A DNA stretch of 64,000 nt. Source: Alphaproteobacteria bacterium. Lineage in GTDB: Bacteria > Pseudomonadota > Alphaproteobacteria > Rhizobiales > Rhizobiaceae. Positions 5,573 through 51,792 of the stretch are shown one piece after another. The notes beneath the pieces were generated by a model that did not search any database, was not told the DNA's origin, and worked only from the letters and a program-made list of their open reading frames with translations. The stretch spans positions 2,480,001-2,544,000 of the forward strand of contig JANSYK010000001.1 in NCBI GenBank assembly GCA_024742485.1, written 5' to 3'. A program made the position numbers and the translations under genes. The first letter of the stretch is position 1; the number at the start of each line of letters is the position of its first letter.

Positions 5573-5589
5573 CGGACATGTGTTGTCCG
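5573..5589. promoter_or_regulatory. Inverted repeat CGGACA-N5-TGTCCG upstream of korA
   Basis: Six-base perfect arms with spacer TGTGT. The half sites GGACA/TGTCC match those of the palindrome at 5434-5447 but with a wider spacer. It covers the alternative GTG start at 5580, which favours the downstream ATG at 5613 as the real korA start. Likely bound by the same regulator, perhaps the nearby TetR protein (inference). Confidence 0.45.
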
Positions 5590-5612
5590 AAACAATTGGA
5601 TCGATTCAGGCC

Positions 5613-7475
5613 ATGGGTCCACATATCAAGCAAGCCGCAGTCCAAGAGCGGAAAACCGCGGAAACCGTTGTGGTTCGATTTGCCGGCGATTCCGGCGATG
5701 GCATCCAGGTGATCGGTTCGCAGCTCGGACTGGCCAGCGCCATGTCCGACAATGACCTGGGCACATTTCCGGAATATCCGTCCGAAGTGCGCGCACCGGT
5801 CGGCACCACCTACGGCGTGTCGGCATTCCAGGTGCATTTTGGCGGGCGTCCGATCAAGACGATTGGTGACGAAGCAGACATGTTGGTGGCTCTCAACCCG
5901 GCAGCGTTGAAAACCAATCTCGACATGCTGAAAAAGGGCGGTCTTGTGCTGATCGATGCCGGCTCCTTCACCCAGCGCAACTTCGACAAGGCGGGCTATG
6001 CGGCTTCACCACTTGAAGACGGCACGCTGGATGACTACCAGCTCATGGCGCCCGACATTTCCAAATTGACCATGGAGAGTGTTGCAGAGATCGGGCTCAA
6101 CAAGAAGGCGTCTCTGCGCTGCAAGAATTTCTGGGCTCTTGGCCTGGTCTACTGGATGTATGGCCGGGACCGGCAGCCGACGATCGACTGGCTCGACAAC
6201 AAATTCGCAAAACTTCCCGATGTGGCCGCTGCCAATGTCGCTGCTCTGAATGCAGGTCACGCCTACGGCGAAACGGTCGAGGCGGCCGGATATGATGTGG
6301 CACGGATCGACATGGAACCGGGCCCATACAGTTTTGTCACCGGCTATGAGGCACTCGCCTGGGGACTGGCCGCCGCCGCCGAACTGTCGGATCGCAAACT
6401 GGTGTTCGCGTCCTATCCGATCACCCCCGCCTCACCCGTGTTGCACACACTGGCGCGTCTCAGCGATATCGGCGTGACGACGTTCCAGGCCGAAGACGAG
6501 ATTGCCGCAATCTGTGCGGCCATCGGCGTCTCGTTTGCCGGCGGCCTCGGCGTAACATCGAGTTCCGGTCCCGGCATATCACTCAAGCAGGAAGCCATGG
6601 GCCTGGCCGTCTCGGCCGAGCTGCCGCTGATTATCGTCAACACCCAGCGCGCCGGCCCCTCCACCGGCATGCCCACCAAGACAGAGCAATCGGATCTCAA
6701 TCAGGCCCTTTATGGTCGGCACGGGGAAAGCCCGGTGCCCGTTCTGGCAGCCGGGTCACCCGCCGAGTGTTTCGAAATGGCGATCGAGGCGGCAAGGATT
6801 GCCCTGACCTATATGACACCGGTCATCCTGTTGTCGGACGGCTTCGTTGCCAATGCCTCGAGCCCATGGGCCCTGCCAGATCTCGACGCCCTGCCGCGCA
6901 TTTCCGTGCAGAACCACAAGGATGCGGATGATTTCAATCCCTATCGGCGCGATCCCGAAACGCTGGCCCGAAGTTGGGCAGTGCCCGGAACACCGGGCTG
7001 CGAGCACCGGATCGGCGGCATCGAAAAGGACTTTGCCAGCGGTCACATTTCCTACGAACCGGAAAATCACCAGAAGATGACCGATGTGCGCGCCGACAAG
7101 GTGGCCGGCATCGCCAAAACCATCCCGCCGATCGCCGTGGACCAGGGTGACGCGAACGGCGATCTGCTTCTGGTTGGTTGGGGATCGACCTATGGGCCGA
7201 TCTCCCGAGCGGTCGGCAATATGCGCGCCCGCGGGTGCCGGGTCTCGCATCTGCATGTGCGGCACATCAAACCCTTCGCGCCCAATCAGAACGAATTGCT
7301 TGACGGCTTCAAACAGGTCCTGGTGCCCGAAATGAACAGTGGCCAATTGGTCAATCTGCTGCGGGTAGAGGGTTGCGCCCACGCCGAAGGCCTGAGCAAG
7401 ATGACCGGCAGACCCTTTCAGGTGAGCGAAATCGAGGATGCGATCCTCGCCCGCGTGGAGACGAGCAATGAATGA
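5613..7475 (+). CDS. korA: 2-oxoacid:acceptor oxidoreductase, alpha subunit with fused gamma domain
   Basis: 620 aa. The N-terminal gamma domain begins at VVRFAGDSGDGIQVIG and spans about residues 18-200. The alpha (pyrimidine-binding) domain follows with SYPITPASPVLH, SSSGPGISLKQEAMGLAV and GPSTGMPTKTEQSDL. The C-terminal swivel domain has SHLHVRHIKPFAP. The enzyme oxidatively decarboxylates a 2-oxoacid (2-oxoglutarate by family habit) to acyl-CoA with ferredoxin or a similar acceptor. It overlaps korB by 8 bp. A GTG at 5580 is an alternative start. Confidence 0.9.
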   Translation: MGPHIKQAAVQERKTAETVVVRFAGDSGDGIQVIGSQLGLASAMSDNDLGTFPEYPSEVRAPVGTTYGVSAFQVHFGGRPIKTIGDEADMLVALNPAALKTNLDMLKKGGLVLIDAGSFTQRNFDKAGYAASPLEDGTLDDYQLMAPDISKLTMESVAEIGLNKKASLRCKNFWALGLVYWMYGRDRQPTIDWLDNKFAKLPDVAAANVAALNAGHAYGETVEAAGYDVARIDMEPGPYSFVTGYEALAWGLAAAAELSDRKLVFASYPITPASPVLHTLARLSDIGVTTFQAEDEIAAICAAIGVSFAGGLGVTSSSGPGISLKQEAMGLAVSAELPLIIVNTQRAGPSTGMPTKTEQSDLNQALYGRHGESPVPVLAAGSPAECFEMAIEAARIALTYMTPVILLSDGFVANASSPWALPDLDALPRISVQNHKDADDFNPYRRDPETLARSWAVPGTPGCEHRIGGIEKDFASGHISYEPENHQKMTDVRADKVAGIAKTIPPIAVDQGDANGDLLLVGWGSTYGPISRAVGNMRARGCRVSHLHVRHIKPFAPNQNELLDGFKQVLVPEMNSGQLVNLLRVEGCAHAEGLSKMTGRPFQVSEIEDAILARVETSNE

Positions 7476-8481
7476 ACATGCCTCCGCCAACAAATTGACG
7501 GCAAACGATTTCGCCACGGACCAGGAAGTCCGCTGGTGCCCGGGCTGTGGCGACTATGCCGTACTCAAGGCGGTGCGAACCGTTCTGGCCGACATCGGTG
7601 CCCGGCGCGAAAACACGGTTTTCGTCTCCGGCATCGGCTGTTCCTCCCGCTTTCCCTATTACATTGACACCTATGGCTTCCATACGATCCATGGCCGCGC
7701 GCCGGCCGTCGCCACGGGCATGCTCCTGGCCAATCCGGATCTCGATGTCTGGATCATCACCGGCGATGGCGATGGCCTGTCGATCGGCGGCAATCATCTC
7801 CTTCACATCCTGCGGCGCAATCTGAACTGCCAGATCCTGCTGTTCAACAATGAAACCTATGGCCTGACGAAGGGCCAGTTCTCGCCGACATCGCATCTGG
7901 CGACACGCACGCCCTCTTCGCCTGGCGGCAGTATAGACAACCCCGTCGATCCGTCGCGATTTGCCCTTGGCTGCGGTGCGCGCTTCGTTGCCCGCGGCGT
8001 CGATACCCAGATCAAACAGCTGGTCGAGGTGCTGAAAGCTGCGCATCGCCACCAGGGTGCCGCCTTTGTCGAAATCTTCCAGAACTGCATCGTTTTCAAC
8101 GAAGACGTATTCGAAGGCTTCACCGCCAAGGCCAATGTCGCCCAACGCCAGCTTCAGGCTGAGCATGGCAAGCCGCTGACCTTCGGCGCTGATGGAACAC
8201 ACGCCCTGGCGTTCGATCCACAGAGCCTCGGCCTGAAGACGGTGGATGTGTCCGACGGCGCGCAACCATTGATCCATGATGCAACCAACCACAATCTGGC
8301 AAGCGCACTGGCCCGCATGGAAAATCCCGACTTTCCGATGGCGACCGGAGTGCTTTACGACAATCCGGGTCCCGTCTATCGCAGTTCGACGGCCGACCAG
8401 GATGCAGCGGGCGCGCCGCGCAAGCTCAAGGACGTCATGCGCGCCGGCCTGAGCTGGCATGTCGGAGAGACCCCAGAGTAA
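7468..8481 (+). CDS. korB: 2-oxoacid:acceptor oxidoreductase, beta (TPP-binding) subunit
   Basis: 337 aa. WCPGCGDYAVLKA near residues 23-35 carries two of the usual cysteines, followed by GIGCSSRFPYY. The thiamine-diphosphate/metal motif is GDGDGLSIGGNH and the substrate loop is NNETYGLTKGQFSPTS. The subunit supplies the TPP and electron-transfer half of the KorAB enzyme in the cytoplasm. The ATG at 7468 gives translational coupling with korA. The final 60 residues are family-typical, with no sign of truncation. Confidence 0.92.
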   Translation: MNEHASANKLTANDFATDQEVRWCPGCGDYAVLKAVRTVLADIGARRENTVFVSGIGCSSRFPYYIDTYGFHTIHGRAPAVATGMLLANPDLDVWIITGDGDGLSIGGNHLLHILRRNLNCQILLFNNETYGLTKGQFSPTSHLATRTPSSPGGSIDNPVDPSRFALGCGARFVARGVDTQIKQLVEVLKAAHRHQGAAFVEIFQNCIVFNEDVFEGFTAKANVAQRQLQAEHGKPLTFGADGTHALAFDPQSLGLKTVDVSDGAQPLIHDATNHNLASALARMENPDFPMATGVLYDNPGPVYRSSTADQDAAGAPRKLKDVMRAGLSWHVGETPE

Positions 8482-12153: not shown

Positions 12154-12984
12154 TCAGGCACTGCGTGAACCGATGTCACCCATGAAACGCAGCAGATGCT
12201 GATCGAATGCCTCCGGATGCTCCCAGAAGGGCGCATGGCCGATCCCGTCCAGTATGTGCACCTGGTCTTCCCAAAGGTTCTGATAATCCAATGACGACAC
12301 GAAGTCGTTGTTGACGAAAGGCTCGTCGCCGCCATTGACGATCGCCAGCGGGACCCTGGATCGCACGGCAACATCGTGCTGATTGCATCCGACCCCATCG
12401 GCAAACCGGGAAAACATTATTTCACGGGCCCGTCCGTCGGTCCGGGCAACCGCATCCCGCAGAAAGTCTTCATAGGGTGCGTTGATGCCGCAGGTCGATC
12501 GGGCATAGGCGTCAACTTCCGCCTGCGTGAATTCCCGCTGGCCGGCCAGATGCATGTGCTCCGACACCAGAAATCCTGCGCCGAGCGCATCCGCCCCCTT
12601 TCCGACCGGCGGCGTACCGGTGATCATCAGGCCGGTCACGGCATCGGAGCGATCAATCATCTCCAGACCGATATGACCGCCAAGCGACCAGCCCAGGACG
12701 GCGAAATCTCCATGGCCGAGCACGTCCATGAGTTCCAGTGCGGCATCGGCATAACCCGGCATCGAATAGGTGGTGTCCGGAGCGTCGGCGTCGCCGGACA
12801 GGCCATGCCCCGGCAGGTCCATCGCGATGCAATGATGGTCCTTTCCGACCCGTCCCAGCAACTGGTTGCGGAACACCTCCTTGCAGGACGAATTGCCGTG
12901 GATCATGAGCAGGGTTGGCCCCTGCCCCTCCGTTTCGCATAGGGCCAATCTGCAATGGCTGGTATCGACCGTTCGTTCACGCAT
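12154..12984 (-). CDS. Alpha/beta hydrolase, last gene of the amide-uptake operon
   Basis: 276 aa. HGNSS is the oxyanion-hole segment, GWSLGGH the nucleophile elbow and GIGHAPFWEHP carries the catalytic His. MDLPGHGLSGD is the usual loop before the elbow. The start at 12984 has GGGAGG seven bases upstream; in-frame starts at 12990 and 13080 are less well placed. It lies 193 bases downstream of livM on the same strand, with a MITE-like repeat between them, so it may be the end of that operon or have its own promoter. Substrate unknown. Confidence 0.87.
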   Translation of the reverse strand: MRERTVDTSHCRLALCETEGQGPTLLMIHGNSSCKEVFRNQLLGRVGKDHHCIAMDLPGHGLSGDADAPDTTYSMPGYADAALELMDVLGHGDFAVLGWSLGGHIGLEMIDRSDAVTGLMITGTPPVGKGADALGAGFLVSEHMHLAGQREFTQAEVDAYARSTCGINAPYEDFLRDAVARTDGRAREIMFSRFADGVGCNQHDVAVRSRVPLAIVNGGDEPFVNNDFVSSLDYQNLWEDQVHILDGIGHAPFWEHPEAFDQHLLRFMGDIGSRSA

Positions 12985-13087
12985 GCCCATCCTCCCTGGT
13001 GTGGTGGATTTGAAGTTCCTATCATTGTTTGCAGTGCACTCGGGAAGGAACTGCAAATCCATAAACCGCACTGGAATCATAAGGTTG

Positions 13088-13163
13088 CTAGTGTCCGGAT
13101 TGAATCTGAAGTTCGTTCTGAAAATGCTGCTTAATGTGGCGAACTTCAGATCCAGGACACTAG
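13088..13163. repeat. MITE-like inverted repeat
   Basis: The ends CTAGTGTCC (13088) and GGACACTAG (13163) are perfect inverted repeats. The pairing continues inwards as ATCTGAAGTTCG against CGAACTTCAGAT, with a 4-base slippage. The whole is about 76 bp with a ~24-base loop and TA at each outer edge, as in IS630/Tc1-type insertions. It could instead be a fold-back transcription-end structure of the liv operon. No second copy was seen in this window. Confidence 0.5.
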
Positions 13164-13177
13164 GCCAAGAGTGTGGT

Positions 13178-14125
13178 TCAAATCTTCAGGCGGTTCAAAA
13201 GCCCCAGCAGCCCACCTGGCGCAAGGCGCAGAACGAGGATCATTGCCACCGCCACGATGATGAAGCGGGCCTCCTCCAGCCCCCGAATACCGGCGAGCGA
13301 CTCGGTCGCGAAGGTCAGTGCCAGGGCAGCGGCTATCGGCCCGTAGGTGGTACCGGTTCCGCCGATCAGTACCATCGAGAGCGCCAGGGCAAGTGTTCCG
13401 AAACCGAACACCTCCGGCGAGGCAACACGCAGATAGATGGCGTAGAACCCTCCGGCCACGCCGGTAAAGACAGCACTGAGAACCAGCACGAGAATACGCT
13501 GCGTCGAAACGGAGATACCACGCGATTCCGCATAGTCCTCCGCATCCCGAACCGCTTTGAGCGATTTGCCGAAGGGTGAATTGATCACCGCCAGCAGGAA
13601 CAGGGTCGAAAGGACCAGAAGACCCAGGCCAACATAGTAATAGCCGAGCTTGTAATCGCGCACGAAGGAATAATCACCGATGCGCATGAAGGGTATGCGC
13701 ACCATGCCCTCGGCTCCGCCGGTTATCTGAGACTGACTGAGCACCAGTTGCATCGCCAGTTGACTGAAGGCGAAGGTAACCAGAACCACGTAGATTCCCT
13801 TCAGGCGCGCAACCGGGGTTGCGATCAGAAAAGCCGCGAAGGCCGCCGTCACGCCGCCAAGCCATATCGCGATCCATGGGTTGATGCCAAAGGTCTTGGC
13901 CGCGATGGCCGCTGTGTAAACGCCGACGCCGAAAAAGGTCAGATGACCGAAATTGAACACCCCGCAATGGCCAAGGCTCAAATTCCAGTTGGACGCGATG
14001 ATCCCATAGATAAACGCGATGATGAACAGGTGACGGGTATAGGATTCCGTTGCCACCAGAGGCACCAGCGCAAGAACCGCAAGGCAGGCCAACGGCACGA
14101 GGATATCTCTGGCCCGCGTGCTCAT
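13178..14125 (-). CDS. livM: Branched-chain amino acid-type ABC transporter permease LivM
   Basis: 315 aa, hydrophobic, with about eight to nine membrane segments. The LivM signature is seen in NWNLSLGHCGVFNFGHLTFF, and the coupling loop in SPFGKSLKAVRDAEDYAES. It forms the inner-membrane channel with LivH. The start ATG at 14125 overlaps the livH stop (ATGA), although an ORF extends further upstream. The family also moves amides, urea and aromatic acids, so the substrate is not necessarily leucine. Confidence 0.92.
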   Translation of the reverse strand: MSTRARDILVPLACLAVLALVPLVATESYTRHLFIIAFIYGIIASNWNLSLGHCGVFNFGHLTFFGVGVYTAAIAAKTFGINPWIAIWLGGVTAAFAAFLIATPVARLKGIYVVLVTFAFSQLAMQLVLSQSQITGGAEGMVRIPFMRIGDYSFVRDYKLGYYYVGLGLLVLSTLFLLAVINSPFGKSLKAVRDAEDYAESRGISVSTQRILVLVLSAVFTGVAGGFYAIYLRVASPEVFGFGTLALALSMVLIGGTGTTYGPIAAALALTFATESLAGIRGLEEARFIIVAVAMILVLRLAPGGLLGLLNRLKI

Positions 14126-14991
14126 TCCTTGCCCCCGAAAATGCCGTTCGGACGAAACACCAGCACGATGATCATCATCAGGAACAGGACAAACGGCGTC
14201 CAGTAGAGCCCCAGCCACACGATCAGCAGCGCCTCGATCAGTCCGATGAGATAGGCGGCACCGGCAGTTGCGCCCAGACTGCCGAGACCGCCGAATATGA
14301 CCACGATCATGGCCTTGACCAGGGGCTCGGCACCCATCACCGGGGTGATGAATCGGATCGAACCGAGCAGCGCACCCGTCAATCCGGCCAGCGCCGCCGA
14401 CAGCCCGAAGGCGATCGCGAACGCCACCGGCACATCGATGCCGATCAGAGCCGCCGAATTCTGGTTCTGGCCCACGGCCCGCAGGCTCCTGCCGGTCCTG
14501 GTTTTCAAGGTAAAGCGCCAGATGGCAAACAGGATCAGCGGCGCCAGCCCCACCAGCACGGCCTCATGCGCCGAGATCGTCGCACCGAGGATCGACACCT
14601 CGCCGTCAATCAGCCGGGGAAGCTGCTTGAGGCGCGCGCCCCAGATGATCTGGGCACCCTTTTCAAGAATGATCATGGCAGCCAGCGTTGTCATGACCGT
14701 GATCAGCAACATGCTGCGATGGCCATAAAACGGACGAACCAGCAACCGCTCGATCAGAACACCGAGCAGCGCCGCAACCAGCGTACCGGCGGCAATGCCG
14801 GTCAACAGCCCCAGCCCCGCTGCTTCGCTGACGGTCCAGGCAACAAAGGCGCCGACCATCATCAGCGCGCCATGCGCAAAATTGAACACGCCCAAAGTGG
14901 TCCAAACGACGCTCAGTCCGCTTGCCATCAGCGCATAGAGAGAGCCGAGAACCAGACCGGAGACCAGCGCGGCCAGAAGTGTTTCGATCAT
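14122..14991 (-). CDS. livH: Branched-chain amino acid-type ABC transporter permease LivH
   Basis: 289 aa with about eight membrane segments. The LivH hallmarks are SLYALMASGLSVVWTTLGVF, NFAHGALMMVGAFVAW and the coupling segment RTGRSLRAVGQNQNSAALIG. It pairs with LivM. ATGA overlaps on both sides (14122-14125 and 14988-14991) show tight translational coupling with livF and livM. Confidence 0.93.
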   Translation of the reverse strand: MIETLLAALVSGLVLGSLYALMASGLSVVWTTLGVFNFAHGALMMVGAFVAWTVSEAAGLGLLTGIAAGTLVAALLGVLIERLLVRPFYGHRSMLLITVMTTLAAMIILEKGAQIIWGARLKQLPRLIDGEVSILGATISAHEAVLVGLAPLILFAIWRFTLKTRTGRSLRAVGQNQNSAALIGIDVPVAFAIAFGLSAALAGLTGALLGSIRFITPVMGAEPLVKAMIVVIFGGLGSLGATAGAAYLIGLIEALLIVWLGLYWTPFVLFLMMIIVLVFRPNGIFGGKE

Positions 14992-15710
14992 CCGGCGGCC
15001 TCCCCGAAATAGAGGCGCATCACTTCGTCATGATCGGGCGCGTTGGCGCGGTCGATTTCGCGCACGACTTCACCGTGCTCGATCAGATACAGCCTGTCGG
15101 CCAGGGCCATCAGGAACTCGACATCCTGCTCCACGACAATCAGTGGAATACCCTCTTTGGCGATGCTGCCGACGGCCTGTGCCAGTTCCTCCTTCAGGCG
15201 CGGCGACAGACCCAAGGTCGGTTCATCAAGCATCAGCAGACGCGGCGCGCACATCAGCGCACAGCCGATCGACAGCATCTGGCGCTCACCGCCTGACAAA
15301 GTCCGCGCCTTCTGGGGGCGCCGTTCTTCCAGCCTTGGAAAGAGCGCAAAGACCTTTTCCAGATTGCTCTGCCGATCATCGCGTGCATGTTTCGAAAAGG
15401 CAGCCAGTTCGAGAGTTTCCTGGACCCGCATGTCGCCAAACAGGGTGTTGCCTTGGGGCGACTGAACCAGCCCGGCTTCCACGATGTGCGGCGGCCTGAG
15501 CCGGGTCAATTCGCGACCATCGAATTCAATCGAGCCGCTGGTGGGCCGGATCAGCCCCGATATGGTCTGCAGCAGGGTCGTCTTGCCATGTCCGTTCGGA
15601 CCGAAAAGACCGATACATTCTCCCGCCCCCAGATGCAGGCTCAGCCCGCGCAGCACGGTGATCGGTCCGTAGCCGGCCGTCACGCCCGAAACGGTCAGCA
15701 GATTGTCCAT
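14988..15710 (-). CDS. livF: ABC transporter ATP-binding protein LivF
   Basis: 240 aa, one complete ABC ATPase domain: Walker A GPNGHGKTT, signature LSGGERQML, Walker B LLMLDEPTLGL, and an H-loop region where VVEQDVEF replaces the more usual His-containing form. LivF is the smaller of the two Liv ATPases and lacks the LivG-specific insert. It shares a single base with the livG stop (15710). Confidence 0.93.
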   Translation of the reverse strand: MDNLLTVSGVTAGYGPITVLRGLSLHLGAGECIGLFGPNGHGKTTLLQTISGLIRPTSGSIEFDGRELTRLRPPHIVEAGLVQSPQGNTLFGDMRVQETLELAAFSKHARDDRQSNLEKVFALFPRLEERRPQKARTLSGGERQMLSIGCALMCAPRLLMLDEPTLGLSPRLKEELAQAVGSIAKEGIPLIVVEQDVEFLMALADRLYLIEHGEVVREIDRANAPDHDEVMRLYFGEAAG

Positions 15711-16441
15711 CAGCCGCGCCCCCCGAGATAGGCTTCGATCACGGCAGGATTCTTGACCACGGTCTGGGGATCGCCTTCAGCGAGGATTTGTCCGTAATTG
15801 AGCACCATCAGCCGTTCGGACACCGACAGCAGCAGACTGAGCACATGTTCGATCAGTAGGATGGTCACACCGGTCCTGTTGACGGCGATCAACAGCGCAT
15901 CAAGTTTTTCGATCTCCGGCTTGGTGAGCCCGGATGCCGGCTCGTCCAGCATCAGGACAGACGGGTTCGAGACAAGCGCGGACGCGATCATCAATTGTTT
16001 CTTCTCGTAGACCGACAATTCGTCCGACCGCATCGTCCGGCGGTCGGGATCGAAATCGACCAGCGTCAGAGCCTTGTCCACATTGTCTGCGGCGTCTCTG
16101 CGGCGTTGCCCGCCATTGTAAACCGCGCTGATCTGCAGGGTCTCGTCGGCCGACAGCTCGGGAAATTCGGCATCCTTCTGAAACGTCCGGCAAAGACCCG
16201 CCCGCGCAATGCGGTGGGCTGGCCAGCGATCAATGCGGCGGCCGTCAAAATGCACCTCGCCGGCGGACGGTCCATAGGGAATTCCGGTCATCAGGTTGAA
16301 CAATGTGCTCTTTCCGGATCCGTTGGGACCGGCGATACCGAATATCTCGCCCGAATTGACACGGAACGAGACGTCGTCAACGGCCTTCAGGCCTCCAAAA
16401 GTCTTGCAGGCGCCGGTTATGGAAAGAGCAGGTTCTGACAT
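15710..16441 (-). CDS. livG: ABC transporter ATP-binding protein LivG, unusual signature motif
   Basis: 243 aa. Walker A is GPNGSGKST, Walker B SVLMLDEPASGL and the switch His is in LLIEHVLSLL. The expected ABC signature (LSYGE/LSGGQ) reads LSVYEKKQL, so the glycine that contacts ATP is missing. This may make the composite ATP site at this subunit weak. The rest, including GLCRTFQKDAEFPELSADE, is normal for LivG. It follows livK by 52 bases with a strong hairpin between. Confidence 0.92.
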   Translation of the reverse strand: MSEPALSITGACKTFGGLKAVDDVSFRVNSGEIFGIAGPNGSGKSTLFNLMTGIPYGPSAGEVHFDGRRIDRWPAHRIARAGLCRTFQKDAEFPELSADETLQISAVYNGGQRRRDAADNVDKALTLVDFDPDRRTMRSDELSVYEKKQLMIASALVSNPSVLMLDEPASGLTKPEIEKLDALLIAVNRTGVTILLIEHVLSLLLSVSERLMVLNYGQILAEGDPQTVVKNPAVIEAYLGGRG

Positions 16442-16453
16442 GGAATGTCCGGT

Positions 16454-16482
16454 GCCGTGGCCTGCGGTGCGCAGGCCACGGC
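16454..16482 (-). terminator. 13-bp perfect hairpin between livK and livG
   Basis: The stem GCCGTGGCCTGCG pairs with its exact complement across a 3-base loop. In the minus-strand transcript it follows the livK stop by 11 bases and has no U-tract after it, so it looks like a 3'-end-protecting or attenuating hairpin, not a full terminator. Hairpins here commonly keep the binding-protein mRNA more abundant than the permease genes. Confidence 0.7.
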
Positions 16483-16493
16483 TTTTTCTGTAA

Positions 16494-17726
16494 TTACTTC
16501 ATCCAGCCAGGCTGTTCGAATGAACCCGTGGCATATTGATCCGGGTAGAACAAGATGCGCTCGCCATCGCGAATCTGGTAAAATTGGATGGGCACACCAT
16601 CATTGCTCTGCACCGACAAATGCGTAGCCGGATCAAACTGGATCTTGCCCATGGCCGTCTGCTTGCTGGTCTTGGCGATTTCGGCACCGATTTCTGCCCG
16701 CTTTGACGGATCACCCACCTTGCCCAATGCATCAGCATAGATCAGAACCTGCTCATAGAGCGCCGGACCGTAGGTTCCCGGCTCATTGCCGAATGCGGCC
16801 TTGTATTTTCCAAGAACCTCTGCGGCGCGCGGATTAGTCGGTGTGTTGAGAACGCCGCCAAGCAGGTTGTAGACGACACCGCTTGATTTCTCCTTGGTCA
16901 GCTCCAGAAATTCCGGCACGGACGGGGCATACTGAATGAATACCAGGCTGTTGGTCGGATCTTCCATGAACTGGTTCATGAAGGTTGCGGCATTGGCCGA
17001 AACATAGTCTGTATTGATCAGCACGGCCGGCGGATTTTGCCTGATCTTGGCAAGAAAAGCCCGCCAGTCGTTGATTTCGCCGAACGGCAGCAGGTCATTT
17101 TCAGTCACTTCCCAGCCGGCTTCGCCAAAGGCAACCACCATTCCCTCGGCAATACCCTTGGAGTAGGGATTGTCGGATGAGATGATGGCCACCTTCTTGT
17201 TTGGCAGGGTCAGCTTACCATCGGCGACGAGACCTTCGATCACCGGAACGATTTCCGTATTGTAGCCTGCATAGGACGGCGTCATCGACCAAACCGTGCC
17301 GAAATCATCCGGGCTCGGCGCGATGATGCCCTCGGTCTGGGCTGAATTCGCGGAGACGAGATACACCATGTCCTGCTCGGCCATCATCTCGATCTCGAAA
17401 TTCGATCCCGAGGCATAGCCGGTCATGATCGCGCCCATCGCCCGGTCGCCAAGCAGCCGTTCCGCGGCGGTTGCCACCGCATCGGCACTGGCATCGCCCA
17501 CATCGCCAACCGAAAGCTCGAATGTGTGGCCCGCAACACCACCGGCCTTGTTCAGCTCATCGACCGCCATTTGCGCACCGTTGACCATTTCCTGGCCATC
17601 GGCCGCGGCCTTTCCGGTCACCGGTGCCAGCACACCGATCTTGATCACGTCTGCGTGGGCCAGGACCGCTGAGGTCGCCAGGGCCAATGCGCACACCGCA
17701 CCTGTGAAGAGTCGTCTGTTTAACAT
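16494..17726 (-). CDS. Periplasmic substrate-binding protein of the Liv-type transporter
   Basis: 410 aa. A Sec signal peptide, MLNRRLFTGAVCALALATSA up to about AHA, precedes a mature start at DVIKIGVLAPVTG, the typical Peripla_BP_6 beginning. GDVGDASADAVATAAERLL and NSAQTEGIIAPSPDDFGTVW are standard family blocks. It captures the substrate in the periplasm for LivHMGF. Its place directly behind the M20 gene (31 bases) suggests the ligand is what the three upstream hydrolases process. Confidence 0.92.
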   Translation of the reverse strand: MLNRRLFTGAVCALALATSAVLAHADVIKIGVLAPVTGKAAADGQEMVNGAQMAVDELNKAGGVAGHTFELSVGDVGDASADAVATAAERLLGDRAMGAIMTGYASGSNFEIEMMAEQDMVYLVSANSAQTEGIIAPSPDDFGTVWSMTPSYAGYNTEIVPVIEGLVADGKLTLPNKKVAIISSDNPYSKGIAEGMVVAFGEAGWEVTENDLLPFGEINDWRAFLAKIRQNPPAVLINTDYVSANAATFMNQFMEDPTNSLVFIQYAPSVPEFLELTKEKSSGVVYNLLGGVLNTPTNPRAAEVLGKYKAAFGNEPGTYGPALYEQVLIYADALGKVGDPSKRAEIGAEIAKTSKQTAMGKIQFDPATHLSVQSNDGVPIQFYQIRDGERILFYPDQYATGSFEQPGWMK

Positions 17727-17757
17727 GATGTTCTCCTGCTCTTATTGATTGTCGGGA

Positions 17758-19068
17758 TTACTTGGTGCCGCAATTGTCGATCACCGCCGCAGCGATGACT
17801 TTTGTCGATTCCACGAGGCTCTCGATATCCACACATTCATTGTTGGCGTGAAATCCATCACCGCTGGGTCCGTAAATCAGTGCGTCGACGCCGGCTCCGG
17901 CATAGTGCGCCGCGTCCGTCACCGCCTCGAATCCCTTGATCACGGGCGGGGTCGCCTGCACCTGACCCGCGCGGTTCGCGAGAGAAAGCGTCAAGGGGTG
18001 ATCCACCGGAGTATTCATCGGCGGGAAATTGAGATCGAAGAGATCCCACAGGATCTTGGGCGGGTTTTCGCGCATCCAGGAATCGGTTGCAGCGAAATGA
18101 TGAACGAAATCCTCGAATTCGGCTTTGACGTCCTCGAAACGTTCATCCGGCATGAACTTGTAATCCAGGTCGATGGTCACGACATCCGAGATCATCGCCG
18201 CATTGCTCATGACGGCCGGCAAACCGTTTTCACCCATTCCGGCGCCGCCGTGGATCACCCCGGGATTGATGGTCGCAATTCCGGTCGGCATCAGCGGATG
18301 CCAGTGATCGCGGCAGCGCGACGCTTCGAATTCCCGCAAGGCATTGAGAAACCGGGTCGCCAGTTCGATCGCGTTGACACCCGGTTCGATGCGGTCCGCG
18401 GTGTGCGGCTGCGGAAAAATCGAATTGAATCGCCAGCCCGCATGCGCCTGCTTTCCGAAGATGGTCACCCGCACCCAGGTCAGTCCACCTTCGGCCGCGA
18501 CAACGTCGCCCCAGGTCGGTTCGGCAATGATGGCACGCTTGGCCAGGCGGCGGTTTTTCGCGATATCCATCGCGCCGAAACCACCTGCTTCCTCATCCAC
18601 GACACTGTGAATGGCCAGTCTGCCGTCAAGCTCGATTCCAGCGGCACGAATGGCATTCGCGGCCGCCACGCAGCACGCCACGCCCCCTTTCATGTCGACA
18701 GCGCCCCGGCCCCAGATCTTGCCCTTGTCGATATCCGCACAGAAGGGATCACGGTCCCAGGCGGTGCTGTCGCCAACCGGCACAACATCAATGTGACCGC
18801 ATAATATGAGGCTCTTTTCGTCAGAACCCTCCCACTCGCCGATCACATTGGGGCGATCCGGAAAGACATCCCAGCGTTCGGTGGCAAAGCCATCGCTCTG
18901 CAGCTGACGCTCGATGACATCCTGTACTTCCGGCTCCCGATTGATCTCCGGATCGACCTGGAATTTGGGATTGACCGAGGGGATCTTCACCAGTTCCCTG
19001 GTCAGGTCGATAACGAAGTCCCGGTCCTTGTCGATCCGCTCCCAAACACTGTTGACGGCATCATTCAT
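17758..19068 (-). CDS. M20-family amidohydrolase (ArgE/DapE type)
   Basis: 436 aa. The metal-binding sequence set is complete: LCGHIDVVPVG (His), GRGAVDMKGG (bridging Asp), VDEEAGG (general base Glu and ligand Glu), AEPTWGD, and HANNE near the C-terminus. A dimerisation lid domain lies between. The family hydrolyses N-acyl or N-carbamoyl amino acids. The start at 19068 overlaps the upstream stop by 4 bp (ATGA). Substrate is undetermined; acetylornithine is possible, but the operon context points to a catabolic acyl-amino acid. Confidence 0.9.
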   Translation of the reverse strand: MNDAVNSVWERIDKDRDFVIDLTRELVKIPSVNPKFQVDPEINREPEVQDVIERQLQSDGFATERWDVFPDRPNVIGEWEGSDEKSLILCGHIDVVPVGDSTAWDRDPFCADIDKGKIWGRGAVDMKGGVACCVAAANAIRAAGIELDGRLAIHSVVDEEAGGFGAMDIAKNRRLAKRAIIAEPTWGDVVAAEGGLTWVRVTIFGKQAHAGWRFNSIFPQPHTADRIEPGVNAIELATRFLNALREFEASRCRDHWHPLMPTGIATINPGVIHGGAGMGENGLPAVMSNAAMISDVVTIDLDYKFMPDERFEDVKAEFEDFVHHFAATDSWMRENPPKILWDLFDLNFPPMNTPVDHPLTLSLANRAGQVQATPPVIKGFEAVTDAAHYAGAGVDALIYGPSGDGFHANNECVDIESLVESTKVIAAAVIDNCGTK

Positions 19069-19712
19069 GATTGGCTCCCGTTCAGTTCCTCGATGAGGGC
19101 TTGCGTGGTACGCTGACGGCAATATCCGCGAATGGTGTTCAGCGAATTGTCGTGGCGCTCTTGGCTGTAGGTGGCGCAGGCATCTGTCACCAGAGTGACC
19201 AGATAGCCAAGGTCACAGGCGTCGCGGACGGCGCTTTCGACACATTGATCGGTGATAAGGCCGCTGATGATCAGTTGGCGGATACCGAGATTGCGCAAAA
19301 TGTAGTCAATGGAGGTTGAAATGAAGACTGATGAAGAGGCTTTCGGCAAGACGATCTCGTCATCGCCGGGCTTCAGCGCATCGATGACCTTGCCGTCCCA
19401 GGACCCCTTGGGTACGTTGAAACCGGTTATCTTGTAGTCAAGGCTGCGGTCCCGCCCGTCCTTGGTCAGGCTTTCGATCGTGGTGTACATCACCTCGATT
19501 TCTGCCGACCGGCAGGCCTTTTGCAGGCGCTGCATGTTGGGCAGGGTCCGGTTCGAAAGCGTATCGAAAAACCAGCCATATTTTTCACGGAATTCGGTTT
19601 CGGAAAGATCCGCGAATTCGCCCCCCTTTCGGTGAGCGCAAAAATTCTGGACATCGATAAACAGCAGCGCAGTCTGATCGGGAACCACCGGTATGTCACG
19701 GGACAAACTCAT
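19065..19712 (-). CDS. Isochorismatase-like cysteine hydrolase
   Basis: 215 aa. The catalytic triad is visible: Asp in LLFIDVQNF, Lys in VLPKASSSVF and Cys in GLITDQCVESAVRDA. The cis-peptide region is present just before the Cys. Members with Cys act on amides such as N-carbamoylsarcosine, nicotinamide, biuret or ureidoacrylate. It is coupled by ATGA overlaps to the genes on both sides. Which amide it cleaves cannot be read from sequence. Confidence 0.88.
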   Translation of the reverse strand: MSLSRDIPVVPDQTALLFIDVQNFCAHRKGGEFADLSETEFREKYGWFFDTLSNRTLPNMQRLQKACRSAEIEVMYTTIESLTKDGRDRSLDYKITGFNVPKGSWDGKVIDALKPGDDEIVLPKASSSVFISTSIDYILRNLGIRQLIISGLITDQCVESAVRDACDLGYLVTLVTDACATYSQERHDNSLNTIRGYCRQRTTQALIEELNGSQS

Positions 19713-20509
19713 GACACCGCCTCCCCGAGAAACCTCGTGACAGCACCCGCCAGTGCCCGGCCCCAGGCGATACAAGCATCCTCGCTGACGATCCGGTCAT
19801 TGCGGATTTCGATCAGGCTGTGGGCAATGCCACGCCCTTCCCCGTGATGGGGCACGAACCAGTCTGTCCGGTCTTCTACATTGTAGGGCGCATTCATCCC
19901 GATGTTCAGTTCGTCGATCCCCGGCAATTGCAAGGCCATGTCGCCCATGGCGGTCGCCAGTGCCGAAGAAGTGGCCTCGTCCTTGCGATACAGAAAGCCC
20001 ACATCCCACGGCCGAACCGCGCCATTGAGGATCCGTGTGAAACTGTGAACGGCAAACACCGCCTTGCGCGGCGTCTCGTCCAGATGCGCCGACACCGCAT
20101 CGTGATAGGGGGTAAAAATCTCGTCGATCCGCTGTTGCCGCTGCATTGGACTCAATTGCCTGTTTCCGGCAATCGGCACGCCATGGCTGGTTTCCAGGAT
20201 CGATTCGGGTGAATCAACCGGCCTGTTGCAGTCGATGACAAGCCGGCTGTAGGGCTGCAACACGAGCGGCGCATTGAGAACGGCCGCCATTTCACGCGAC
20301 ACCCGTTCCGCGCCGATATCATAGGCGATGTGAAGATCAAGCTCCGCCGGTGACAGTCCAAGGTCTCCCAGGGCCGACGGAATGGCGCGGCCCGCATGTT
20401 CACAGATCACCACGACCGGACTGTTTTCCGCACCTGCCACAATTGTGTAAGGTTGCGGATCCGTTGGGCGCAACAGACGGTTGAGCTGGTTCACTGCGCC
20501 TTCGTTCAC
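19709..20509 (-). CDS. N-formylglutamate amidohydrolase family protein
   Basis: 266 aa. The family block VVVICEHAGRAIPSALGDLG (about residues 30-50) carries metal-ligand candidates. DIGAERVSREMAAVLNAPLV, SRLVIDCNRPVDSPESI and VFAVHSFTRILNG follow in the expected order. HutG-type enzymes release formate from N-formylglutamate; related members act on other N-formyl acids. No hut genes are nearby, so a histidine pathway role is not supported. It is the first gene of the long minus-strand operon. Confidence 0.87.
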   Translation of the reverse strand: MNEGAVNQLNRLLRPTDPQPYTIVAGAENSPVVVICEHAGRAIPSALGDLGLSPAELDLHIAYDIGAERVSREMAAVLNAPLVLQPYSRLVIDCNRPVDSPESILETSHGVPIAGNRQLSPMQRQQRIDEIFTPYHDAVSAHLDETPRKAVFAVHSFTRILNGAVRPWDVGFLYRKDEATSSALATAMGDMALQLPGIDELNIGMNAPYNVEDRTDWFVPHHGEGRGIAHSLIEIRNDRIVSEDACIAWGRALAGAVTRFLGEAVS

Positions 20510-20542
20510 GGCAATTCCACTTCGGTTTCGATGTGGTCATTA

Positions 20543-20562
20543 AATGGAAGAATAATTTCATT
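20543..20562. promoter_or_regulatory. Candidate RpiR operator, site 1
   Basis: AATGGAA and TTTCATT pair with one mismatch across a 6-base spacer, in the AT-rich space between the divergent amidohydrolase and rpiR genes. TGAAA/TTTCA half sites are common in RpiR-family operators. It lies 34 bases upstream of the amidohydrolase start. Confidence 0.35.
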
Positions 20563-20593
20563 GTCAATTTTCGAGTTGGTATTGACGAATTTT

Positions 20594-20606
20594 TTTCAAA
20601 ATGAAA
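20594..20606. promoter_or_regulatory. Candidate RpiR operator, site 2
   Basis: TTTCA and TGAAA are perfect inverted arms with spacer AAA. It lies 21 bases upstream of the rpiR start and shares half sites with site 1. Two such sites suggest control of both divergent promoters by the RpiR protein (inference). Confidence 0.4.
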
Positions 20607-20627
20607 TTCTGTCGGGAAGGAGAGCAC

Positions 20628-21482
20628 ATGGATCTGCGCGACCGCATTGAACAGATGTCGAAGGATTTCACATCGGCCGAGCGCAAGCTGGCCTCGGCGC
20701 TGCTTTCCGACTACCCGTTTGCCGGTCTGGAAACGATCCAGTCCTTCGCGCAGAAGACCCACACATCGGCACCGTCAATCACGCGGTTCGTTCAAAAACT
20801 GGGAATAAACGGCTACCAGGAGTTTCAGCGACAACTGATCGGGGAGCTGAAGGAAAGCAAACTTTCTCCCGTCCAGCTTCGCCGTGGCTCCATGCCCGTC
20901 AAGGACAGCTTCCTGAGGGAACATCTCAACGACACGTCGCAGATTGTCGCGTCGGTCTCCGATGGCGTAACCGCCACCCAATTCGAGCGGGTGTGCGGAT
21001 TGCTGGCCGACCAGAAACGCGCAATCTATTTCCTCGGCGGTCGCATAAGTGATCCGATCCTGCAATATCTGTCGCGCCATCTGCGCCAGATTCGGCAGAA
21101 CGTCTTTCATCTGCCGGCCGACACGGAGGTCTGGCCCGAATATCTGCTGCGCATGCGTCCGCGGGACATCTTCGTGACCATCGATTTTCGGCGCTACGAG
21201 GCAAGATTGGAGGAGCTTTCCGCAAAAATCGCCAACAAGCGCGGGTCGCAGATCATCTTGCTGACCGACAAGTGGCTTTCACCGGTTGCCAGACACGCCA
21301 ATGAAGTATTGACCATTCCGATTGAAAGCGCATCGGCTTGGGGTACATATAGCGGCGCCCTGGCGCTCACCGAAGCAATGATCACCTATATTTCGGAGCA
21401 GGATTGGGACGCAACCGAGAAGCGCATTGGCCAATGGGACGCGCTTCGACTGGACAATGAGGACGTTGATCTTGAGGAATGA
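20628..21482 (+). CDS. RpiR/MurR-family transcriptional regulator
   Basis: 284 aa. The N-terminal HTH_6 domain (residues 1-80) includes TSAERKLASALLSDYPFAGL and TSAPSITRFVQKLGINGYQE. A SIS domain follows (about 125-260) with AIYFLGGRISDPILQYLSRH and RGSQIILLTDKWLSPVA. SIS domains sense phosphosugars in sugar-related members, but many RpiR proteins next to amidohydrolases sense other ligands. The start at 20628 has GGAAGGAGAGC upstream. Divergent from the amide operon. Confidence 0.9.
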   Translation: MDLRDRIEQMSKDFTSAERKLASALLSDYPFAGLETIQSFAQKTHTSAPSITRFVQKLGINGYQEFQRQLIGELKESKLSPVQLRRGSMPVKDSFLREHLNDTSQIVASVSDGVTATQFERVCGLLADQKRAIYFLGGRISDPILQYLSRHLRQIRQNVFHLPADTEVWPEYLLRMRPRDIFVTIDFRRYEARLEELSAKIANKRGSQIILLTDKWLSPVARHANEVLTIPIESASAWGTYSGALALTEAMITYISEQDWDATEKRIGQWDALRLDNEDVDLEE

Positions 21483-22785
21483 ACCACTAATCGTCGCCGC
21501 AACATCGGATTTTGCCGGCCAGGTGCGCGGCAAAGCTTTTCCTGCCGTTGAACTCGACAAGCGGCTGAAACGCGGCATCGGGTGGACGCCCACCAATGTC
21601 CAGATCACCTGTTTCGACCTGATCGCTGAAAGCCCGTTCGGTGCGCTTGGCGATCTCGTTCTCATTCCCGACCCGGCCACCTTGGTCAAGGTGGATTATG
21701 ATGACGGGTGCCCGGCCGAACAATTCGTCTTCGGCGATATTCTCGATATGGCGGGCGATCCCTGGCAATGCTGCACCCGCTCGATCCTCAAGGCCGCTCT
21801 GAAACGGCTGGAAGACGCGTCCGGACTGTCACTGAAAGGCGCGTTCGAACATGAATTTCATTTTTGCGATCGCGACGCTCCGTCGGCTGGTGCCTACACG
21901 GCCGCCGGTTTTCGCGCGGAGCGGGAATTCGGCGAGACGCTGTTTTCCGTCGCCGCAAATGCCGGATTGAAGCCCGATACCTTCATGAAGGAATATGGCC
22001 CCGATCAGTATGAGGTGACGATCGGTCCGTCCATGGGGCTGGCCGTGGCCGATCAGGCGTCGATTTTGCGGGAACTGGTCCGCATCACGGCGGATCGGCT
22101 TGGACAGCGGACGAGCTTTACCCCGCTGCGCAACCCGGATGGCGTCGGAAACGGTGTGCATATTCATATGAGCCTGCGTGACGGTAACGGCAAACCGGCA
22201 ACCTATGACGCAAACGGTCCGCATCAACTCAGCCGGACGGCCGGGCAGTTCGTTGCCGGTATTTTGAAATATCTCGACCGCATCGTCGCGATCACCGCCC
22301 CCAGTGTTGTCTCCTACACCCGGCTGACCCCGCATCGATGGAGTGCGGCCTATAACAATCTCGGATATCGCGACCGCGAGGCCTCGGTGCGGATCTGTCC
22401 GGTATCCGATATCAGTGACATCAAGGCAGCGGAACAGTTCAATTTCGAATACCGCGCGGCCGACGCAGCCGCCAGCCCCTATCTGGCGCTGGCCGCCATT
22501 GTCCATGCCGGCGTCCAGGGCATCGAGGAGGGTCTGGCCTGCCCCGAGGCCACCCACGAGGATCTCTCACTGCTTCCCGAGCAGGAACTGGAAGCCAGAG
22601 GCTTTCTTCGGCTACCGCAAACCTTGGAAAGCGCTCTGGACCGATTTGCCGACGACGACACCGTCACCGGTTGGTTTCCCGACGGATTTGCCCAGATATA
22701 TCGCCTGCACAAACTGGGTGAGATCGAATTCCTCAAGGACAAGACCGAAATCGATACCTGCGCGGCCTATGAAGCGGCCTACTGA
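21457..22785 (+). CDS. Glutamine synthetase family protein (PuuA/GlnT-like ligase)
   Basis: 442 aa, the length of gamma-glutamyl ligases of the GS family. Motifs are EHEFHF for metal-binding glutamate, NGVHIHMSLRDGNG for the His/Asn loop, PHRWSAAYNNLGYRDREAS for ATP and glutamate binding, and FEYRAADAAASPYLALAAI. These enzymes ligate glutamate to an amine (putrescine, ethanolamine, anilines) using ATP. The ATG at 21457 overlaps rpiR by 26 bp and has no good Shine-Dalgarno; TTG at 21472 is an alternative start. Confidence 0.85.
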   Translation: MRTLILRNEPLIVAATSDFAGQVRGKAFPAVELDKRLKRGIGWTPTNVQITCFDLIAESPFGALGDLVLIPDPATLVKVDYDDGCPAEQFVFGDILDMAGDPWQCCTRSILKAALKRLEDASGLSLKGAFEHEFHFCDRDAPSAGAYTAAGFRAEREFGETLFSVAANAGLKPDTFMKEYGPDQYEVTIGPSMGLAVADQASILRELVRITADRLGQRTSFTPLRNPDGVGNGVHIHMSLRDGNGKPATYDANGPHQLSRTAGQFVAGILKYLDRIVAITAPSVVSYTRLTPHRWSAAYNNLGYRDREASVRICPVSDISDIKAAEQFNFEYRAADAAASPYLALAAIVHAGVQGIEEGLACPEATHEDLSLLPEQELEARGFLRLPQTLESALDRFADDDTVTGWFPDGFAQIYRLHKLGEIEFLKDKTEIDTCAAYEAAY

Positions 22786-51300: not shown

Positions 51301-51792
51301 AGCCTGTTCAAGCTGATGGCCTACAAGGATGAGTATGAAGTTGCGCGTCTGCACACGGATCCGGCATTTCTGAGCAGCCTGAACGAGCGGTTCGAGGGTG
51401 ATTTTACCGTACACTACCATCTGGCGCCGCCGCTTCTGCCGCTCGGCACGGATGCCCGCGGCCGGCCCAACAAGCGTCAGTTTGGTCCATGGATGCGATC
51501 GGCCTTCCATATCCTGGCACGCCTGAAGTTTTTGCGTGGCACACCGTTCGATCCCTTTGGCTACACGCGGGAGCGAAACGAGGAACGGTCCCTGATCAGG
51601 TGGTATGAAGACCTGGTCACAGTCCATCTGCCCGAGATCACACAATCCAATATGGAAGTCTGGAAAAAGCGTCTTGAGGGACCGCTTCAAATGCGCGGCT
51701 ATGGACCGGTCAAGGCAGAAGCTGTAGCAAGGGTAAAATCCGAAATGGAAGCTGGCCTCGCACAGTCAGAATCCACCGTTGAAAACACCTGA
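48346..51792 (+). CDS. Fused indolepyruvate ferredoxin oxidoreductase (alpha-beta in one chain)
   Basis: 1148 aa, the size of the proteobacterial one-chain IOR. A pyrimidine-binding domain is at the N-terminus (SGYRGSPLGGVDLEM, DRAGDALKHGN). Next is the TPP half with FCSGCPHNSST near residue 435 and GGEGVNWAASS, and a cysteine cluster CEGCGDCSVESNC near 637 for Fe-S. A gamma-type domain begins at GVGGTGVVTVGA near 726. It decarboxylates aryl pyruvates to aryl-acyl-CoA. The following aminotransferase makes its substrates, so the pair degrades aromatic amino acids. Confidence 0.93.
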   Translation: MNMHSPAIDTGYSLDKRYTSTTGRVYMTGTQALTRIVFDQARRDRQAGLNTAGFVSGYRGSPLGGVDLEMWRNKALLEQNNIEFLPAVNEDLAATAILGSQQVETDPNRLVEGVFGLWYGKGPGVDRAGDALKHGNAYGSSPHGGVLVVAGDDHGCVSSSMPHQSDVAFMAWFMPTLNPAHIGEYGSFGEYGYALSRYSGMWIGFKAISETVESAASIDIPADRPFVMPSFDIPPGGLHYRWPDLPGPQIEERMEAKKQAVFAFAEANPIDRRVYNDPDAIFGIVTTGKGHLDLMEALRLLELDEQACRSLGIDVYKVGMVWPLARRDALAFVRGKREVLVIEEKRGIIESQFKEYFYDHPGDKPDYMVGKRDEHGNRLIPWTGELSPLQLVPLVASRLDRVFDTDRFSARARKLASHRSDPIAIAGVTRTPYFCSGCPHNSSTKVPEGSKALAGIGCHFMASWMDRETTSLIQMGGEGVNWAASSKFTGGGHIFQNLGEGTYYHSGSMAIRQAIAAGANITYKILYNDAVAMTGGQPVDGPISVQAIAQEVRAEGVARIALVSDDPDKFNLSAFPAGTTLHHRRDLDPVQREMREIKGVSVLIYEQACATEKRRRRKRGQLEDPKRFAVINDLVCEGCGDCSVESNCLSVEPKETPFGRKRQINLSSCNKDFSCLNGFCPSFVTLEGATRRRKDPAEHDPRAIAARLPEPDCTPLDQPYDLLVTGVGGTGVVTVGALITMAAHLEGKGASVLDFTGFAQKFGPVLSFIRLAGNPAAIHQVRIDRGSADALIGGDIVVSSSPKASATYRNGTRAVLNLAEAPTGDIVRSRDAEIEVDRRAARIAETIGGQPPRAINANALSEALLGDTVYANMLMLGFAWQDGLVPVSIDALRRAIELNGVAVETNLKAFDWGRLARGNPQALPPVATTQDVTDETLDEMITRREAFLTAYQNKAYADRFRTIVDRVQVHEHNIGTTGLTKAVARSLFKLMAYKDEYEVARLHTDPAFLSSLNERFEGDFTVHYHLAPPLLPLGTDARGRPNKRQFGPWMRSAFHILARLKFLRGTPFDPFGYTRERNEERSLIRWYEDLVTVHLPEITQSNMEVWKKRLEGPLQMRGYGPVKAEAVARVKSEMEAGLAQSESTVENT

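Follow-up and report, generated by a model that had tools for sequence, protein, structure and literature searches.

What does a bacterium do with a gene set named after N-formylglutamate, isochorismate and glutamine? The question is raised by a locus at positions 12,154 to 22,785 of a 64,000-nucleotide stretch of Rhizobiaceae DNA (hereafter the window; assembly GCA_024742485.1, contig JANSYK010000001.1, positions 2,480,001 to 2,544,000), in which an N-formylglutamate amidohydrolase-family enzyme (FGase), an isochorismatase-family hydrolase and a glutamine synthetase-like (GS-like) ligase are encoded together with an RpiR-family regulator. A preliminary description of this DNA had proposed that its amide-type hydrolases, importer and glutamyl ligase form one catabolic unit, and this idea gains from our comparison, as FGase, isochorismatase, ligase and RpiR are kept together in most relatives. 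The same description held that this is not a standard route; we find instead that the scaffold resembles the known gamma-glutamylation scheme, with a hydrolase replacing two dehydrogenases. Our overall best model, to which we assign a probability of roughly 0.55, is that the cluster is a catabolic gamma-glutamylation module with a hydrolytic middle step. That its core glutamylates and deglutamylates is likely, and on balance we would call the scaffold known and the hydrolase in place of the two oxidation enzymes new. The proposal that the isochorismatase acts as an amidase on the glutamylated intermediate is tentative. The core consists of the following features:

19709..20509, minus strand: FGase, PF05013 'N-formylglutamate amidohydrolase' family (Pfam E 3.7e-38)
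19065..19712, minus strand: isochorismatase-family cysteine hydrolase (Pfam E 1.2e-34)
20510..20600: A+T-rich divergent intergenic region, presumed from reading the sequence to hold an RpiR operator and two promoters
20601..21482, plus strand: RpiR-family regulator with SIS and HTH_6 domains (Pfam), alternative start ATG 20628
21457..22785, plus strand: GS-like glutamyl-organic-amine ligase (Gln-synt_C, PF00120, E 1.5e-68), start ATG 21457 or TTG 21472

The FGase stop codon and the isochorismatase ATG share an ATGA at 19709-19712, and the RpiR stop codon (21480-21482) overlaps the GS-like gene with either in-frame start (ATG 21457 or TTG 21472). No consensus sigma-70 site was found in 20510-20600; a promoter scan gave two sites compared with 3.6 in shuffled sequences.

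To judge which genes belong together we used 80 loci, selected solely through their isochorismatase (67-79% identity; the best 80 of 91 relatives, in a scan that favours close relatives). Neighbours were scored within 9.5 kb of the isochorismatase gene, and 51 of the 80 loci have at least 7.5 kb on both sides. An FGase and a GS-like gene were each present at 73/80 loci, RpiR at 59/80 and a LivH-type permease at 58/80; the numbers for the 51 full-flank loci were 48, 49, 44 and 43, respectively, and 38 of the 51 had all four. Rough arithmetic from the four FGase genes of the window's genome (6.87 Mb in 161 contigs) predicts an FGase within 9.5 kb at about 1% of places, so the linkage of FGase and isochorismatase at 73/80 loci is not due to chance. 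An M20 ortholog was found at only seven of the 80 loci (L020, L022, L024, L037, L069, L071, and L077), the window-type binding protein at six, and the alpha/beta hydrolase at one (L020), while Liv transporters with other binding proteins (types B, C and D) occur at 30, 18 and 3 loci, respectively. Based on these neighbour counts, the usual unit is RpiR, ligase, FGase and isochorismatase, with the importer and the M20 gene exchangeable. The preliminary description would be refuted by a lack of conserved linkage between the hydrolases and this transporter; such linkage was seen only in a few Rhizobiaceae/Mesorhizobium loci, which counts against that description in part. Additional neighbours include class-III aminotransferase homologs (23/80, counted with no identity threshold), FmdA amidases (19/80, in 17 cases beyond the transporter genes) and Amidohydro_2-type proteins (5/80).

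A larger set of 102 loci comprises all 80, nine of 11 plasmid loci, 12 of 20 further loci and the window; L130, L133, L155, L159, L161, L162, L164, L165, L167, and L169 were examined separately outside it, and three pairs of records are duplicates (L028/L169, L035/L162, and L065/L159). Of the 102 loci, 94 have an FGase as well as an isochorismatase; the two genes share a strand in 89, and in 78 the FGase gene comes directly upstream. The ligase lies on the strand opposite to the isochorismatase in 76 of 93 loci of this set.

Which branch of PF05013 the FGase belongs to bears directly on its substrate. The HutG model TIGR02017 gave the window FGase 26.2 bits, below its cut-off of 278.75. The protein matches the FGase of an ethanolamine-type operon in the same genome (L170) with 34% identity and 133 bits, and the HutG-like FGase adjoining hutH with 29 bits only. 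In a maximum likelihood tree of 83 rows taken from 133 FGases (after a length filter, random module members plus the named ones, L170 and L173 being the same), HutG and a fourth paralog lie across a branch of 3.92 (support 99/96) from the FGases of the modules and TRAP operons. Those of the TRAP operons make up a single clade (99/96) inside the module FGases, its exact branching point being weakly supported. Among the 133 located FGases, 103 are nearest the window FGase, and 99 of these have an isochorismatase nearby; 28 are nearest the ethanolamine type (20 with TRAP genes and one with an isochorismatase), and the other two are HutG and the fourth paralog. No isochorismatase match was found in the 30 loci L173-L202, where the flanks are only 1.5 kb. 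By sequence, the window FGase groups with the ethanolamine-type FGase and not with HutG, and because it belongs there an N-formyl substrate is not implied; we propose that 19709-20509 encodes a putative gamma-glutamyl-amide (gamma-glutamyl-amino acid) hydrolase. A HutG/histidine route was rejected in view of the tree and by the presence elsewhere in the genome of hutH with its own FGase. The earlier remark that hut genes are absent holds for the window at most, as hutH and an adjoining further FGase are present in the genome (C102).

The nearest solved structure to the window ligase is 4hpp (PA5508, E 6.3e-97), which was reportedly solved in 2012, and the next structure matches at 2.4e-32. Against the GGputSyn model NF045547 (PuuA) the ligase scored 264 bits, below the cut-off of 650. 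We propose that 21457-22785 encodes a PA5508-type gamma-glutamyl ligase acting on an amine. In the Puu pathway a GS-like ligase likewise acts first and a gamma-glutamyl hydrolase late; unlike that pathway, the window has no PuuB, PuuC or PuuD among the genes scanned, and its hydrolase is of another family. The polyamine Puu route is disfavoured, given the ligase score under the cut-off, although a plain polyamine route keeps some likelihood in view of listings of PA5508 as PauA7. Three genomes of one family (L150-L152) have RpiR, isochorismatase, GS-like ligase, FGase and an APC permease in one row. We call these loci pseudomonad-like because the L150 ligase matches 4hpp at E 8.9e-214, and their row order appears to fit PA5506-PA5510 of Pseudomonas aeruginosa (the PauA7 cluster), of which we take PA5506, PA5507, and PA5509 to be RpiR, isochorismatase and FGase. 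Compared with the window, this counterpart uses an APC permease, is arranged in a single row and has no M20 or AidH-like match.

According to a passage of PMC6478659, bulky amines such as catecholamines are the preferred substrates of PA5508, which polyamines did not induce. PA5506-PA5509 carry the label 'glutamine synthesis' in an excerpt of PMC6246594, and a table of a Crc regulon study includes PA5508 and PA5510 (part of PMC6235884). In the portions of PMC4409342, PMC6246594, PMC6478659, PMC11335346, PMC9397018, PMC5403932, PMC2542419, and PMC6235884 that were covered, no substrate of the whole PA55xx cluster is demonstrated, and the 'PA5508' of PMC7996583 is a strain number and irrelevant here. 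No literature combining these gene families was found among open-licence PMC articles.

The closest described system is the gamma-glutamylation of ethanolamine, known from Chromohalobacter salexigens, Agrobacterium C58, Phaeobacter MED193, and Streptomyces coelicolor (SCO1610-SCO1615). In the route as outlined in sections of PMC9397018 and PMC6529630, a GS-like enzyme glutamylates the substrate in the first chemical step, two dehydrogenases lead to gamma-glutamylglycine, and a PF05013 protein reverses the glutamylation last, freeing glycine and glutamate; the same sections assign PF05013 to the amidohydrolase of the C. salexigens/S. coelicolor scheme. This order is the opposite of that in the preliminary description, which had the ligase acting last, on a freed amine, whereas in the ethanolamine route glutamylation comes first and a PF05013 enzyme undoes it at the end. 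The Phaeobacter MED193 operon, listed by locus tag in part of PMC10132767, comprises RpiR, gamma-glutamylglycine amidohydrolase, TRAP, glutamylase, aldehyde dehydrogenase (ALDH) and alcohol dehydrogenase genes, and the amidohydrolase was, in the parts of the literature covered, assigned by context and induction. The window's own genome has an operon of this type (C154:1605500-1625400; L170, 8824-16259), with RpiR divergent from FGase, DctQ, DctM, DctP, GS and an iron-type alcohol dehydrogenase (Fe-ADH); no aldehyde dehydrogenase was recognised beside it. Common to the window and the ethanolamine operon are a GS-like ligase, a PF05013 hydrolase, a dedicated importer and RpiR (the last as in MED193). 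The FGase is divergent from RpiR in both L170 and the window, and the two RpiR proteins are 36% identical (186 bits). Unlike the ethanolamine operon, the window module has an isochorismatase, a Liv importer (APC in other loci) and a PA5508-type ligase. Within 9.5 kb of the isochorismatase, Fe-ADH was found at none of the 80 loci and ALDH at two, and neither was found among the 20 window proteins scanned; a TRAP match occurs at 3/80 loci, and the window importer is Liv-type and not the TRAP type of the ethanolamine operon.

The enzyme that would stand in the place of the dehydrogenases is the isochorismatase-family protein. An Asp-Lys-Cys triad is catalytic in the cysteine hydrolases of this family, and its counterparts D21, K125, and C158 (numbered from GTG 19715) are conserved in 97% or more of the rows of an alignment (118 rows from the loci and the window, plus the window again, with a few records present twice). 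The protein is below the cut-off of all five NCBIfam models matched, of which RutB (82.5 bits against 377.95) and BiuH (65.6 against 370) are nearest and fall short as equivalogs; its best solved relatives are 3kl2 and RutB. It is like RutB of the Rut system and BiuH in being a D-K-C hydrolase, and unlike the Rut system in that no other Rut genes are among the genes scanned. The Rut, biuret and nicotinate/maleamate routes were rejected, as the protein is under the equivalog cut-offs and no partner genes were found among those scanned. We propose 19065-19712 as a candidate amidohydrolase of a glutamylated intermediate.

A pathway can be put forward from these parts. The Liv transporter would import the compound, which in the sub-type found in the window may be N-acylated and freed by the M20 enzyme. 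To judge from PA5508 and related ligases, the GS-like ligase would then use ATP to join glutamate to the amine, giving gamma-Glu-NH-R. The isochorismatase would cut a C-N bond in R, most likely that of a carboxamide (gamma-Glu-NH-R'-CONH2 to gamma-Glu-NH-R'-COOH and ammonia), and so occupy the place of the alcohol and aldehyde dehydrogenases of the ethanolamine route; this is the weakest step. If the bond is that of a primary carboxamide, the product would be a gamma-glutamyl amino acid, the class assigned to the PF05013 enzyme. The FGase-family enzyme, by homology to gamma-glutamylglycine amidohydrolase, would split the gamma-glutamyl bond to give glutamate and the amino acid, which would suit the class-III aminotransferases found at 23/80 loci and in some relatives may be taken onward by the one nearby. 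RpiR would sense the substrate or an intermediate.

The carboxamide is thinly backed by an amide theme in the neighbourhoods, namely the FmdA amidases (19/80) and a monooxygenase-like gene. The latter resembles 3we0, titled L-amino acid oxidase/monooxygenase (E 1.5e-276), which we take to be lysine-specific, making 5-aminovaleramide. It lies downstream of the ligase on the same strand in L006 (5162-6826), L074 (4481-6130), and L079 (4492-6141), with FmdA next to it in L006 and L079. A wider reading, which we consider possible but rather unlikely, is that the loci represent a second gamma-glutamylation branch in the Alphaproteobacteria, some Gammaproteobacteria and Klebsiella plasmids, with hydrolysis as the middle step, carboxamide amines as substrates and a FluG-like enzyme replacing the FGase in some loci. 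The substrates would then be omega-amino amides, either made from lysine or ornithine via 2-monooxygenases or imported.

Aspergillus FluG is an amidohydrolase domain fused to a PA5508-like ligase; we know of no isochorismatase partner of fungal FluG. In A. nidulans, PA5508 is able to stand in for the ligase half of FluG, according to the parts of the literature covered. A similar pairing, with a separate Amidohydro_2-type protein beside the ligase, is seen in L038, L045, L058, L075, L082, and L167, and the window is without one. In L058 (7.2-8.3 kb), L075 (5.8-6.9 kb), and L167 (10.4-11.5 kb) the gene is FluG-N-like, lies between ligase and isochorismatase and has no FGase nearby, whereas L038, L045, and L082 have both an FGase and the Amidohydro_2-type gene. 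Replacement of the FGase by this protein in L058, L075, and L167 is possible.

Several observations weigh against a glutamylation module with a hydrolytic middle step. Seven of the 80 loci (3/51 with full flanks) are without a nearby FGase and seven (2/51) without a ligase. In L020, the FGase, isochorismatase and M20 genes are accompanied by no ligase or RpiR match over 20.7 kb; the 17 kb of L155 contain isochorismatase, M20 and RpiR genes, with neither an FGase nor a ligase match; and in L154 the FGase is absent between isochorismatase and RpiR. Because M20-type loci occur without an adjoining ligase or FGase, we lowered our overall probability from 0.6 to the value given above. A further cluster, in which FGase, ligase, isochorismatase and RpiR genes are all present, occurs in each of the genomes of L154 and L155 (G462 and G465; at 0-3.5 kb of L154 and in L156, respectively), and the missing partners are possibly supplied in trans. 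Isochorismatases of 46-51% identity can stand alone: L130 is without FGase and ligase, and L164 and L165 have the ligase only. Distance correlations over 47 loci were 0.53 for isochorismatase and FGase, 0.57 for isochorismatase and RpiR, and 0.29 for isochorismatase and ligase, compared with 0.39 for isochorismatase and LivG. When distance matrices of 65 loci were permuted, the observed r exceeded every permuted value for each of six pairs, the transporter pair LivG-RpiR included, with shared ancestry uncorrected. The HutG and fourth-paralog rows of the FGase tree are long-branched and were flagged by the tree tool, and the window ligase is only 25% identical to that of the same genome's ethanolamine operon. 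Several papers, in the parts covered, class PA5508 (PauA7) as a gamma-glutamyl-polyamine or monoamine/polyamine synthetase. The link with the 3we0-like monooxygenase is limited to three of the 80 module loci, of the 12 genes of this kind in 295 Rhodobacteraceae genomes only one stands at the module, and the window's genome has none. Finally, the need to glutamylate an amino amide before its hydrolysis lacks an explanation.

Downstream of the isochorismatase gene the window has the following additional genes:

17758..19068, minus strand: M20 ArgE/DapE-family deacylase (TIGR01910, 268.3 bits, cut-off 217.6)
16494..17726, minus strand: Liv/HAAT-type periplasmic binding protein (Peripla_BP_6 E 2.9e-38; nearest solved structure 3h5l, E 1.6e-46)
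15710..16441, minus strand: LivG-type ATPase, 243 amino acids, assigned to the LivG slot from position and ATPase motifs seen by eye
14988..15710, minus strand: LivF-type ATPase (ABC_tran E 1.5e-31; UrtE/LivF models best, below cut-offs)
14122..14991, minus strand: LivH-type permease (BPD_transp_2 E 3.4e-38)
13178..14125, minus strand: LivM-type permease (BPD_transp_2 E 8.5e-40)
12154..13080, minus strand: AidH-like alpha/beta hydrolase (AidH structures 4g5x/4g9e, E 7.8e-91)

All eleven open reading frames (ORFs) of the locus were checked against the window and are open at the positions claimed for them, and Pfam, run on ten of them (all except LivG, 15710-16441), names these ten with scores far over the cut-offs. 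The architecture in the preliminary description is therefore confirmed throughout: ATGA overlaps link the genes for FGase, isochorismatase and M20 (the second at 19065-19068, where the isochorismatase stop meets the M20 ATG), the Liv transporter is complete, an alpha/beta hydrolase gene follows, and the RpiR and GS-like genes are divergent from these and overlap each other. Copies of the LivG protein in the M20 sub-type loci are 56-73% identical. A hairpin of 13 pairs (11 of them G-C) lies at 16454-16482 between the binding-protein and LivG genes and may cause unequal expression of the binding protein and the ABC genes.

The M20 protein, which scores above the cut-off of the ArgE/DapE model TIGR01910 as listed, is an accessory of the Rhizobiaceae/Mesorhizobium sub-type. 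Because its gene is translationally coupled to the isochorismatase gene in the window sub-type, the imported form may be N-acylated. On a Sinorhizobium fredii plasmid (L125, 12716-13060) a short annotated M20-family gene stands just ahead of the FGase and may be what is left of the M20 deacylase gene. AidH and the alpha/beta hydrolase align over 267 residues, with 60/103 identities in the first block. The window protein keeps counterparts of AidH Ser102, His248, Glu219, Tyr160, and Asn33, the residues named in a part of PMC3532132. The product of 12154-13080 is thus a good candidate for a quorum-quenching N-acyl-homoserine lactone lactonase by sequence similarity; its membership of the module is doubtful, and we treat it as a neighbour because it is tied to the module only in L020 among the 80 loci.

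These accessory genes matter for the other explanations. The one we take most seriously, though we think it unlikely, keeps the glutamylation module but places the isochorismatase before the ligase, so that an imported amide, ureide or imine would be cut to a free amine, which is then glutamylated, used and deglutamylated. The nearest models of the isochorismatase, RutB and BiuH, act on small free ureides and amides, the presence of an M20 deacylase in the operon agrees with deprotection as the opening step, and the occurrence of isochorismatase and M20 without ligase and FGase (L155) or without ligase (L020) led us to rate it slightly higher than before. Small clusters such as RpiR-Iso-GS-FGase-APC would, however, then have no enzyme to alter the compound once it is glutamylated, and deglutamylation would simply undo the ligation unless enzymes encoded elsewhere took part. 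Much less probable is the ordered stripping put forward in the preliminary description, in which FGase, isochorismatase and M20 remove N-formyl, N-carbamoyl and N-acyl (or acetyl) groups and the ligase handles the freed amine last. While each of the three families can cleave C-N bonds and translational coupling joins the genes here, the M20 gene is present at only 7/80 loci, the transporter is exchangeable, and the FGase is not HutG-like, by both its TIGR02017 score (26.2 against 278.75 bits) and the tree, in which it groups with the glutamylation-operon FGase. A catabolic unit for quorum signals, in which N-acyl-homoserine lactones are opened by the AidH-like lactonase and lose their acyl chain to M20, the rest processing homoserine or its amide, is very improbable. 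The strength of the AidH match, the five conserved key residues and the same neighbour in L020 speak for it, but the alpha/beta hydrolase is found in one of 80 relatives, the other 79 having no such gene near the isochorismatase, and its gene is the last of the row, after those of the transporter.

Elsewhere in the window, 5580-8481 holds a 2-oxoacid:ferredoxin oxidoreductase alpha/beta pair, and 48346-52991 a POR domain + DUF6537 protein, presumably indolepyruvate-oxidoreductase-like, followed by a class I/II aminotransferase. The product of 9172-9930 matches the iodothyronine deiodinase family PF00837 (E 1.9e-12) and is probably a thioredoxin-fold relative.

The isochorismatase was found at E <=1e-35 in 19 of 398 Pseudomonadota genomes, the window's genome included, and at E <=1e-40 in 103 of 72,556 plasmid records, 46 of which are Klebsiella. 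Two Klebsiella pneumoniae plasmids (L123 and L133, both IncFIB) and a Pantoea plasmid (L129) carry RpiR-FGase-Iso with ligase, APC permease and class-III aminotransferase divergent; in L133 a formamidase/ANTAR operon adjoins the module. On plasmids of S. meliloti (pSymB, Ak57), S. fredii and Shinella the core is combined with genes for a Liv transporter and an aminotransferase. One record titled Nocardioides marinus (L018) has an alphaproteobacterial-type locus with an isochorismatase 77% identical, and its presence in a record named as an actinobacterium probably reflects contamination.

The model of a catabolic gamma-glutamylation module with a hydrolytic middle step provides a testable function for a gene set whose names (N-formylglutamate amidohydrolase, isochorismatase, glutamine synthetase) are misleading, and it gives the PA5508 ligase partner genes. 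If a FluG-like amidohydrolase deglutamylates in some of these loci, the N-terminal half of fungal FluG would gain a testable reaction. If the middle step is indeed hydrolytic, glutamylation would be a protecting-group strategy of general use, compatible with more than one middle chemistry, and an exchange of the middle enzyme would alter which amine can be used.

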